Source: Synechococcus sp. PCC 7335
GTDB taxonomy: Bacteria > Cyanobacteriota > Cyanobacteriia > Phormidesmidales > Phormidesmidaceae
Reading direction: 5' to 3'
DNA length: 64,000 bases
Assembly (NCBI RefSeq): GCF_000155595.1
Contig: NZ_DS989904.1
Span: 2,384,256-2,448,255 of the forward strand
Of this stretch, positions 58,240 to 62,494 are shown one piece after another. Position 1 is the stretch's first letter. Each line of letters begins with the position of its first letter. The translations under genes and the position numbers were made by a program. The notes under the pieces were generated by a model. It ran no database searches and had not been told where the DNA came from. It was given only the letters and a program-made list of their open reading frames with translations.

Positions 58240-58638
58240 CTATAGCAGACTTCGCATCGCTGCCCAGTCATCTCTTTTCACCAACCAGGGAGCAACCGGT
58301 ACCTTTTTAGTGATGCCGTTATCGTCTATATAGATTCGACGACTATCTGCCTTGACAAATTCCCAAGACTCGAAGGTATACCGTTTTTTCTCCATTCCTA
58401 GCAAGTTATACACTGTCAGCTGATGCGCCTCTAACAAGAAGTACGGGCGCTGTAAGCAGTAACATCCGAAGCCAAAAAATCCAATGGCTAGGCCAGCTAG
58501 GGGTAAAAGGCTAATGCTTACTTGTGTGGCACTCCAAAGGGAGTAAGCAGTGCCAACCATACCACCAGCGAGGAAGAGGACACCGGGTGTTTTGTTGTAA
58601 TAAGCCATCAAACGCTGCGATGAATCGGCGGGTTGCAT
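58240..58638 (-). CDS. Membrane protein with a PH-like domain
   Basis: The 132-residue protein has two hydrophobic segments (residues about 18-38 and 43-60) followed by a beta-strand-rich region (LTVYNLLGMEKKRYTFESWEFVKADSRRIYIDDNG) typical of bacterial PH-like domains. The C-terminal end is PWLVKRDDWAAM. No family member is known to me with a defined function. It converges on thiC. Confidence 0.6.
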   Translation of the reverse strand: MQPADSSQRLMAYYNKTPGVLFLAGGMVGTAYSLWSATQVSISLLPLAGLAIGFFGFGCYCLQRPYFLLEAHQLTVYNLLGMEKKRYTFESWEFVKADSRRIYIDDNGITKKVPVAPWLVKRDDWAAMRSLL

Positions 58639-59030
58639 GGAGAGTATGGGTGAACTATCTGAATAGTACTTTTGAATACGAATACTTTTGAATAATGAAG
58701 ATAGCGTTACCTTAGTGCAGGTGCAGACATTCTGACCCCTTTTAAGGTCGCTCGCTAATTATGAAACTAAGAGCAAGGGAATTGAGTAAAAGGAAATTGA
58801 GTAAATAAGGGAATTCGGATTAGTATATAGCGTTCCCGTTCGCGGACGTCACATCGAAGTATTCAACTTCAGTTGCTTCGGCCTGGAAATTGGATGTTTA
58901 AGTGAGAACCGCTTTATTGCTGTAATTATCCGAGTCCTGGATTCAAAAACTCTCAGTTCCGCAATTCCTGTAGGTCCCCTATTTCCTAGTCTTTCTACAC
59001 TCACGGGTGCAGTAGCTCCCACCGCACTAG
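58639..59030. other. Spacer without recognisable gene
   Basis: 392 bases without supported genes. An isolated open stretch at 58849-59034 on the minus strand is not convincing (no motif, Ser/Arg-rich). Confidence 0.45.
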
Positions 59031-60716
59031 TCAACTCTCAGACTTGTCTGTCTGCGGAATGTATTGCCACTGCCAAGGCCTAGATGAGCGACCGCTGAGT
59101 CGTCTAGGAGAAGAAAGTTCAAAGCCATAGGTCTGAGCGTTTGCGCTCAGCCACCTAAACGCCTCTGTCTTTCTAAAGCTAGGCTGTCGGTCGGTTGATT
59201 CATCACTACCACCAATGTCGACAACATATCCCGTGTGATAGTCCCCAACAGCTACGAACGAAGTGTCAGTATTCGAGGTATTATCGTTTGCTGTCTGGGT
59301 AGGTTCGCGGTACCCAGAGAGGGCATATAGCTCGATCGCTTCAGCTCTAGCAGCTGCAATCATCTTCCAATAGGCATCTGCCGCTTCGGGGCGTAGCAAG
59401 ATACTGCCATCCTCTAGCAGGTTAGTAAGCTGGGACGGAGTGGCTGCTTCATCTATCGCTTTTGCATCGGAGGGTTTAAAGACATTAGCAGTCCAGTTTT
59501 GCCAGGTTTGAGGCAGGCGAGACAGACGGTATCGCCCCCACTGATAAGTTTTAACGCCAGTGCCAAGCATGAATAGAACAGCAACACCGGCAACAAAAAA
59601 TTTGAACAGGTGAGGATTAAGCGGTCGGGGTCTAGAAAACCTCGTTGGACTCTCAGGAATTACATTCGCTGCTGCGTCCGCTACTGCACTCCCATCGCCA
59701 TTGAGCGGCAAAGAGGAGTAGTTAGCCCTAAATTGAGCAGAAGGGGAGTATAACTGAGCACCCGGTGCGGCAATCACGGTAGGTAAACGACTATTTTGAG
59801 CAATTCTTTGGCGATCGCCCATTCTGCTTAAAGTATCCATCGCTTGCTTGGCACTCTCAAAGCGATCGCGCCAATCCTGTCGCACCAGGCGATCGATAAA
59901 CTCTGCTAAGTGCAAACTCACCTCTACCTCTGCTCGCCACATAAGTCCCTTAGTCGGATCGTAGCTAAAGTCGTGATGAGAGCGGCCTGTTAATGCCTCG
60001 ATTGCTATCAACCCTAGTGCGTACAGATCGCTCGTAGGCTGTGGGTTCTGATCGTAATTAGGTAGAAGCTGCTCGGGCGCAGTGTAAGTATGAGGACTCA
60101 CCGGAACAGCAATAGAGAGGCTACCGTCAGCGTCTACTCTACTCCTTGCAAGCCGCGAAAGCGCAGCAAAGTGAGTTATGAAGATCTGACCATCTTTGTC
60201 CTGGCGGATAAGGTGCGCAGGATGCAGGTACTGATGAACCACTCCTTGGGCATGAATAGAACTTAGGCCAACAAGCATATCCTGCATAAGCTTGATAACG
60301 TAGCTTTCACTAAGTGGCTTTCCCGGCTTGATTTCGGCGCTGAGAGGATGTCCCTCGATATGTGCTTGAACAAGATAGAAAGTGTTTGACTGATCAAGAT
60401 TTTGATCACCAAGCTGTCTGGGTTCAGTATGCTTGGCTTTTGGTACTAAGGTTTTTGGACCTGATGTATGCCCAGCTTCTGTATAAAAATAAGCTGTTAG
60501 CCTCGGGATGGCCGCAGACTCACTTAACCGTTCTAGAATCTGAGCTTCACGTTCTAGATAGTGGCGAATCTTGCGTTGACGGTAGTGAATAGCAATAATC
60601 CAGCACAGCGGCTGCTGAAGATGATGGCGATCGCGAGCTAGATAAACTGTTCTAAAATCCGTACAAATTAGCTTTTCCTTTAGCTCAAATCGGTCTTTCA
60701 ATATCTGCGTATTCAT
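59031..60716 (-). CDS. Pseudokinase fused through a membrane helix to a degenerate VanY-type carboxypeptidase domain
   Basis: The 561-residue protein has three parts. Residues 1-290 follow the protein-kinase plan but every key site is lost: the Gly-rich loop reads ICTDFRTVY, the VAIK lysine is I41, HRD is H161-Q-Y163, and DFG is H182-F-A184; APE survives as TAPEQL. Residues about 373-391 form one membrane helix. Residues about 425-555 match the M15B D,D-carboxypeptidase (VanY) fold: ADAYWKMIAAARAEAIELYALSGY, a degenerate SxHxxGxAxD box G491-D-Y-H-T-G-Y-V-V-D500, then RWLSANAQTYGFELS and PWQWQY. Two of three zinc ligands (H to Y493, H to Q549) and the catalytic Glu (to R546) are replaced. Both domains look inactive, so binding or scaffolding is the likely job. 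Confidence 0.75.
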   Translation of the reverse strand: MNTQILKDRFELKEKLICTDFRTVYLARDRHHLQQPLCWIIAIHYRQRKIRHYLEREAQILERLSESAAIPRLTAYFYTEAGHTSGPKTLVPKAKHTEPRQLGDQNLDQSNTFYLVQAHIEGHPLSAEIKPGKPLSESYVIKLMQDMLVGLSSIHAQGVVHQYLHPAHLIRQDKDGQIFITHFAALSRLARSRVDADGSLSIAVPVSPHTYTAPEQLLPNYDQNPQPTSDLYALGLIAIEALTGRSHHDFSYDPTKGLMWRAEVEVSLHLAEFIDRLVRQDWRDRFESAKQAMDTLSRMGDRQRIAQNSRLPTVIAAPGAQLYSPSAQFRANYSSLPLNGDGSAVADAAANVIPESPTRFSRPRPLNPHLFKFFVAGVAVLFMLGTGVKTYQWGRYRLSRLPQTWQNWTANVFKPSDAKAIDEAATPSQLTNLLEDGSILLRPEAADAYWKMIAAARAEAIELYALSGYREPTQTANDNTSNTDTSFVAVGDYHTGYVVDIGGSDESTDRQPSFRKTEAFRWLSANAQTYGFELSSPRRLSGRSSRPWQWQYIPQTDKSES

Positions 60717-61753: not shown

Positions 61754-62494
61754 TCATAAGACTAGCAACAGACTAGAGTAACCCGCTGCTCCTAGCGCAA
61801 ACATCCAGAATCGACTTTCCCTTTCCTGGGGTAGCTCTTCTTTCAGTATGTTTAAGATGATGCCACCTGCTAAGAATGCAAACAAAATAGCTGTAATTGC
61901 TTCATCGATCTTAGTTTGGGTACCAATCACCCAACCACAAATCACAGCCGCAGCTAGAATCCACTTGCCTACACGAGAATAAGCCCGTTTATGGTCTTCC
62001 CACAGACTATAGTCGTTGACCAGGAAATGGAGAGCCATGGCGATCACGTATAGCCATAGGTCTCTTAGTCCTGGCTCTTCGCGATGCATCAGCAGATAGC
62101 CAATCAATGCGTTGTACAGCCCGAAGGACACCATGTGCAACCAGAACACCCCAGGCTGTGTCTCATCGCCCTGGCCCTCTTTGACACTTTGGTACCTAGA
62201 GACTTTAGCGGCTTTCTCTAAGCCATAAAAGGCAATCATCCCTAACAACGCCACAATATATACGTGATGCTCAACTGCCGAGAGCATCGCGCTGTTTTCT
62301 TGAAAGTCCGATTGTGCCTCACTTAAATCTGGTAAGACATGAACAAAGACGTATGCTACCGAAACACCGCTACTCAGAGATAGCCAGCGGCTACGAGGCA
62401 GTCGCTTCAGAAACTTAAACCGACTAGCGATGATATGAATCAGCGCTAGCAAAAGCGCGGATAGTCCCGCTAATAAAATGCTAGAGCTGTGCAT
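61754..62494 (-). CDS. ZIP-like membrane protein
   Basis: The 246-residue protein has about seven hydrophobic segments. Polar His/Asp positions within membrane segments (HVLPDLSEAQSDF; AFLAGGIILNILKEELP) resemble the metal path of ZIP transporters, though the classical HSxxEG site is not plain. The sequence ILNILKEELPQE is similar to the metal-site helix of ZIP-like proteins. A role in metal transport is a guess. Confidence 0.55.
   Translation of the reverse strand: MHSSSILLAGLSALLLALIHIIASRFKFLKRLPRSRWLSLSSGVSVAYVFVHVLPDLSEAQSDFQENSAMLSAVEHHVYIVALLGMIAFYGLEKAAKVSRYQSVKEGQGDETQPGVFWLHMVSFGLYNALIGYLLMHREEPGLRDLWLYVIAMALHFLVNDYSLWEDHKRAYSRVGKWILAAAVICGWVIGTQTKIDEAITAILFAFLAGGIILNILKEELPQERESRFWMFALGAAGYSSLLLVL

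Follow-up and report, generated by a model that had tools for sequence, protein, structure and literature searches.

PASTA kinases are built as a kinase, one helix, and a cell-wall-related ectodomain. An M15-like fold serves protein binding in the N-domain of Hedgehog, a secreted animal ligand, and tyrosine can ligate zinc in some metallopeptidases. MviN, for its part, is MurJ, a flippase. The available sections of a 2025 review describe bacterial pseudokinases as largely unexplored by experiment and distinguish the families ActPs1-3, GLW, CP1, DYD, and DLHK (PMC12599244). According to these sections, PknB phosphorylates the C-terminal tail of mycobacterial MviN, a member of the ActPs3 family, and this tail recruits FhaA; the CP1 pseudokinases of cyanobacteria and proteobacteria are without a transmembrane region and are linked to COG3899 (PMC12599244). 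The words "VanY" and "carboxypeptidase" are absent from the text of the review (PMC12599244), and a literature search on kinase-VanY fusions, with most subscription journals outside its coverage, listed no title on such a protein.

The window analyzed here, a stretch of 64,000 nucleotides from Synechococcus sp. PCC 7335, encodes a protein which is, by sequence and predicted structure, a bacterial membrane pseudokinase joined to a VanY/M15B-like ectodomain. It resembles the PASTA kinases PknB and Stk1 in the fold of its kinase half and in the kinase-helix-ectodomain plan; unlike them, its kinase is dead, Pfam finds no PASTA repeat, and the ectodomain has a peptidase-derived fold. Like MviN, as far as the sections at hand describe it, the window protein is a bacterial membrane pseudokinase with degraded motifs and a cell-wall link, here with an SxxxT motif after the kinase domain. 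MviN, however, has a carbohydrate-binding domain, whereas the cyanobacterial protein has one likely helix and a VanY-like domain, and it is without the activation-loop deletion given there as the hallmark of ActPs3 (PMC12599244). YukC/EssB is likewise presented as a transmembrane bacterial pseudokinase in which the Gly loop and all three motifs are degraded, but it is a Firmicutes secretion-system component with an attenuated activation loop, and no VanY domain is mentioned for it in the same sections (PMC12599244). The GLW pseudokinases are described as reading GLW for HRD, where the window protein has HQY, and it differs from CP1 in its likely membrane helix and in a Pfam search giving Pkinase and VanY only. 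The ectodomain shares its fold and core residues with the LdcB/VanY M15B carboxypeptidases (4mph, 4ox3, VanYB), but zinc His 1 is gone in all of the fusions found, ExxH is gone in the window protein, and the substrate contacts are unconserved. Structure comparison with Hedgehog N-domains of the LAS fold gave a weak match, at a Z below 8 (2wfq: Z 6.9, rmsd 3.4, 110 residues).

The fusion gene and its two halves

The features of the gene and its surroundings are as follows.

59031..60716, minus strand: fusion gene, 561 aa, its product made up of a pseudokinase, a linker modelled at low confidence, one likely membrane helix, and a VanY-like domain
59817..60716, minus strand: kinase-like domain, residues 1-300 (Pfam Pkinase; AF2; structural match to PknA)
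60642..60668, minus strand: degenerate Gly-rich loop ICTDFRTVY, residues 17-25 (alignment)
60594..60596, minus strand: I41, replacing the ATP (VAIK) lysine (alignment)
60228..60236, minus strand: HQY, residues 161-163, replacing HRD (alignment)
60165..60173, minus strand: HFA, residues 182-184, replacing DFG (alignment)
59772..59795, minus strand: linker motif NSRLPTVI, residues 308-315, including S309 and T313 (pLDDT about 27-46)
59541..59615, minus strand: likely membrane helix, about residues 368-392 (hydrophobic stretch; AF2 helix 368-399, blocks of pLDDT 36-60)
59052..59441, minus strand: VanY/M15B-like domain, residues 426-555 (Pfam; structural match to BaLdcB)
59367..59369, minus strand: W450 (16/16 fusions, 0/31 stand-alone VanYs)
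59238..59243, minus strand: D492-Y493, replacing Glu-His, with Y493 at zinc ligand 1 (16/16 fusions; EH in 31/31 stand-alone VanYs)
59217..59219, minus strand: D500, zinc-ligand position still present (alignment)
59070..59081, minus strand: R546-P-W-Q549, replacing E-P-W-H (alignment, codon comparison)
58240..58638, minus strand: co-directional 132-aa protein downstream of the fusion gene, with a hydrophobic N-terminal half (adjoins the fusion in 6/7 genus genomes)

The open frame is unbroken over its 561 codons, 59031-59033 being the stop codon. A Pfam scan of the product recovered Pkinase at residues 23-293 (E 1.3e-15, 57.9 bits against a cut-off of 31.7) and VanY, PF02557, at residues 439-554 (E 1.3e-15, 57.8 bits against a cut-off of 25), and nothing else; VanY was confirmed in 12/12 fusion members scanned. 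The whole-protein AlphaFold2 (AF2) model, built with 12 sequences, has an overall pLDDT of 66.5 and a pTM of 0.48. Its kinase part consists of blocks mostly at pLDDT 78-93, low at about residues 81-110 and 181-210, and the linker at 305-367 stays under 50; in the VanY part the better blocks reach 72-90 and the C-terminal end, including the ExxH site, 51-60. Because full-length structural look-ups gave only kinases among the matches listed, the ectodomain was modelled by itself (pLDDT 72.1, pTM 0.71) and compared separately. With VIA-align, the kinase half matched PknA (4x3f_B: Z 24.6, rmsd 3.0, 249 residues), with PknB (Z 24.3) and Stk1 (Z 23.9) among the other top matches, and the VanY half matched BaLdcB (4mph_B: Z 11.6, rmsd 3.6, 134 residues). 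The kinase-like domain is predicted to lie inside the cell and the VanY-like domain outside, a topology based on domain logic, the helix being flanked by charged residues on either side.

An earlier note on this DNA had proposed a fusion of two domains around a membrane segment, both keeping their folds while their active sites had degenerated. The fusion around a likely helix is supported by Pfam, sequence, and the AF2 model; fold prediction and comparison returned a Hanks-type kinase on one side and a BaLdcB-like domain on the other; and the ORF coordinates, together with every motif change quoted, were confirmed in the DNA. Alignment bears out all four kinase changes (Gly loop, I41, HQY, HFA) as well as the loss of two VanY zinc ligands (Y493, Q549) and of the Glu (R546).

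In the kinase half, a change absent from that note is the loss of the catalytic-loop Asn, replaced by H168. The window protein thus has I, Y, H, and H for the Lys, Asp, Asn, and Asp of an active Hanks-type Ser/Thr kinase, and as aligned it is without the usual ATP- and Mg-binding residues. A kinase fold with degraded catalytic motifs is what defines bacterial Ser/Thr pseudokinases in general, and the window protein shows both. The stretch from DFG to APE has the same length as in the kinase-intact fusion L092, and so there is no activation-loop deletion.

In the VanY half, Y493 stands for zinc His 1, Q549 for zinc His 3, and R546 for the active-site Glu, with D500 kept. Two further changes in SxHxxGxAxD, Ser to Gly491 and Ala to Val498, had gone unmentioned earlier. 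The residues of a catalytic M15B D,D/L,D-carboxypeptidase are therefore incomplete in the window protein (Y493, D500, Q549, R546), while VanY homology and the M15B fold are evident from the bit score and Z value given above. Codons 546, 549, and 551 read AGG, CAG, and CAA, against GAG, CAC, and CGA in L086, the sister of the window gene; with three separate codon changes and an intact ORF, the state of the ExxH site is explained neither by a frameshift nor by one sequencing slip.

Distribution and history of the fusion

By similarity search the fusion is present in 16 of the 63 genomes of the order, all 63 carrying the label of the window's own family, and in 7/7 genomes of the genus. Fifteen of the 16 are full matches at E 1e-82 or better, and the last is the diverged G077. 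Across the class (388 genomes, those of the order included) the next match after the 15 lies at 3e-44 and the frames of the further matches listed do not exceed 437 aa, in a search of best matches only which diverged, G077-like fusions of other families could escape. A 20-genome sample of the phylum, with E up to 1e-60, contained only kinase-part matches besides the window. None of 103 plasmid records matched 80% of the query at a single place, the five matches listed were to the kinase half only, and the ectodomain used as query found no match. The 11 named fusion loci include Phormidesmis, Leptolyngbya, Leptothoe, Adonisia, and Vasconcelosia. The G077 gene, which belongs to another genus (L097, 1655-3256, minus strand), is strongly diverged and has its four kinase residues intact; in its ectodomain the zinc Asp is Val, ExxH is ExxR, and Tyr occupies the zinc-His position.

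The fusions form one group both in the VanY tree (support 100/100; 15 fusions, 31 stand-alone VanYs) and in the kinase tree (support 99/97; 14 fusions, 18 kinases). Both trees and the alignment behind the domain dN/dS values use 15 or 14 fusions, without G077; G004/L088, cut at a contig edge, was left out of the kinase tree and of the kinase counts, which thus cover 15 testable fusions of 16, and was kept in the VanY and linker counts.

The branching pattern and residue counts give clues on the order in which the two sites were lost. Every one of the 16 fusions has Tyr at zinc His 1, where all 31 stand-alone VanYs have His and retain the whole site as SEHHTGYAxD and EPWHW; these 31 are a non-random sample, composed of the best matches per search and two copies from the window's own genome. 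A Tyr variant of VanY general to cyanobacteria was ruled out by the same 31 copies. SxHxxGxAxD is retained in none of the 16 fusions, and none has a complete zinc site, but zinc Asp is kept in 8/16, the Glu in 14/16, the third His in 14/16, and Glu plus His (ExxH) in 13/16. The site reads Y, A, H in L092-L094, L096, G021, and G032. For the kinase, HRD and DFG are present in 18/18 related kinases, and five of the 15 testable fusions keep the full set of K, D, N, and D (L092, L094, L096, G021, and G077; G021 reads HLD for HRD, with the catalytic Asp still present). The other ten are without at least one key residue, L093 being changed at the DFG Asp only. This last gene, from Adonisia turfae (L093, 5095-6549, plus strand), shares 96% identity with the copy of PCC 7375 yet has NFG for DFG, a possible case of very recent kinase loss.

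When the key columns are left out of tree building, the kinase intact/dead label requires at least three changes by parsimony, a minimum resting on one tree and, for the L093 loss, on one residue. L091 and L095 take different positions in the VanY, kinase, and combined trees; support is weak at some inner forks, and L091, L095, and G077 sit on long branches. The loss of zinc ligand 1 most likely dates from the ancestor of the fusions seen. Because kinase-intact members also have Tyr at His 1, the peptidase site was the first to be damaged, the kinase site following on several occasions. The window protein is the extreme case of catalytic loss among the fusions. Hence the earlier claim that both sites are dead holds for the window protein and fails as a family trait: some orthologs retain the kinase residues and ExxH, counter to expectation, while the universal loss of SxHxxGxAxD is consistent with it.

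Linker and neighboring genes

The SxxxT motif of the linker, [DN]S..[PDA]T, is present in 15/16 fusions and in 0/18 related kinases, in which it was sought from 20 residues before to 60 past the matched domain end (L029 ends there). The G077 protein has A and V at the alignment columns of S309 and T313, and its linker instead has a shorter DSAPT.

The 132-aa protein encoded downstream has a very conserved C-terminal part, and its homologues occur in 7/63 genomes of the order, all of the window's genus. The six genomes in which it adjoins the fusion have a second, diverged copy elsewhere, and G005 has only such a copy. The family gave no match in a PDB search and no Pfam match above cut-off; we regard it, as a guess, as a candidate partner of the fusion in this genus. 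The spacer between the two genes (58639-59030) measures about 390 nt in the window and about 20 nt in the sister L086. A repeat element at this place was ruled out, as the 387-nt query matches only itself in its own genome.

This gene aside, no neighbor was common to the window's clade and the other fusions in the loci compared, except for single cluster matches located away from the fusion gene. Upstream, the nearest same-strand ORF of at least 80 aa is a ZIP-type zinc transporter candidate (61754-62494, minus strand; Pfam Zip, 35.2 bits against a cut-off of 35.1), of note only in view of the ectodomain's descent from a zinc enzyme; none of the 11 named fusion loci gave a match to it. In two other genus members the same large protein, in a cluster of two, lies directly upstream of the fusion (L087, 198-2885, and L089, 2282-4876, both plus strand).

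Constraint and possible roles

Comparison with the sister L086 yields dN/dS values of 0.11 in the kinase, 0.10 in the VanY domain, 0.30 in the linker, and 0.33 in the TM region, and 0.142 for the whole gene against 0.031 for thiC, 0.077 for the SSS transporter, and 0.05 for the 132-aa neighbor of the same pair, all approximate given a high synonymous divergence (pS about 0.63). The fusion gene thus evolves faster than these three, yet is constrained. The window gene, L086, and the remaining genus members are all kinase-dead (L088 being only partly visible), and so the divergence of the window and L086 probably postdates the kinase loss. Since both halves look constrained though both sites are dead in the window protein, a role other than catalysis fits best, and the earlier proposal of such a role gains support from the dead sites, the kept folds, and a dN/dS of about 0.1 in both halves.

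In this context, we consider it fairly probable that the window protein is a membrane pseudoenzyme, derived from one fusion of a cyanobacterial Hanks-type Ser/Thr kinase and a VanY-type carboxypeptidase domain, which binds or signals as a scaffold or receptor. A single fusion event in the ancestor would have been followed by an early loss of zinc ligand 1 and by later losses of the kinase site, at least three by parsimony. The periplasmic ectodomain would act as a binding or dimerization module, with a surface including the invariant W450 and D492-Y493, and its state would be relayed through the helix to the pseudokinase, serving as a scaffold. The juxtamembrane SxxxT might, at a guess, be phosphorylated by another kinase and then bound by a phospho-binding partner, a step modelled by analogy on the MviN pseudokinase, whose phosphorylated tail recruits FhaA, and the 132-aa neighbor could be the partner within the genus. 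In lineages with all four kinase residues, phosphorylation may still be the job.

More tentatively, the fusions may be read as a natural series of a receptor-like kinase in which the ectodomain has been a pseudoenzyme since the ancestor and kinase chemistry proved dispensable at least three times, while the job was kept and both halves stayed constrained. If the job was kept through repeated kinase loss, then kinase-intact members may also act mainly by non-catalytic scaffolding. In the pseudokinase clade, output may have passed to the genus-specific 132-aa protein.

The earlier note favored a membrane sensor or scaffold in which one side reads a stem peptide. Such a peptidoglycan receptor, with the old VanY cleft recognizing D-Ala-ended stem peptides and the pseudokinase as the cytoplasmic output, seems unlikely to us. 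The VanY fold is kept, most fusions retain ExxH, Pro547, Trp548, Trp550, and Tyr552 are invariant across the 16 fusions, and PASTA kinases sense peptidoglycan fragments, according to the available part of PMC7286690. Nevertheless, a complete zinc site is found in no fusion and the loop preceding SxH is short and variable. Moreover, the substrate contacts described for LdcB besides the zinc site, in the sections available, are Arg120, Gln125, and Ser151 (PMC4087270), and the corresponding positions hold R in 4, Q in 9 (a count depending on the gapped loop), and S in 9 of the 16 fusions; in stand-alone VanYs each of the three residues is present in 31/31. This pattern disfavors reading through the old pocket; the invariant W450, D492, and Y493 speak for a changed binding surface instead.

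Still less probable is that the gene is being lost, under selection relaxed once both activities had gone, with the window copy as its most decayed member. The window protein is without ExxH where the sister L086 has it, the gene outpaces the three reference genes above, its branch in the VanY tree is longer than that of the sister (0.33 against 0.09), and kinase residues have been lost repeatedly. In the last quarter of the VanY domain, derived changes number six in the window and one in the sister (p 0.125), and the window's ectodomain may be starting to decay. Against a general decay, both domains have a dN/dS near 0.1, ORF and folds are intact, the gene is present in every genome of the genus, and relative-rate counts reveal no significant excess in the window over L086 (VanY 13 against 8, p 0.38; kinase 19 against 17, p 0.87).

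Finally, enzymes with rewired sites, whether through a Tyr/Asp/His zinc site in the window's clade (Tyr being a possible ligand, and L086 having D500 and ExxH) or through an atypical transferase reaction of the kinase half, as in the kinase-fold polyglutamase SidJ named in the available sections of PMC12599244, are very improbable: at the zinc site the window protein is left with Y, D, and Q and lacks the Glu, L092-L094, L096, G021, and G032 read Y, A, H, and in the kinase half of the window protein none of the Lys, HRD Asp, Asn, and DFG Asp survives.

Such an architecture, a pseudokinase combined with a dead ectodomain of peptidase origin, would be new. Furthermore, as the family ranges from kinase-intact members, such as that of Leptolyngbya sp. 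PCC 7375, to others that are fully dead, it would make the roles of receptor kinases beyond phosphorylation directly testable.
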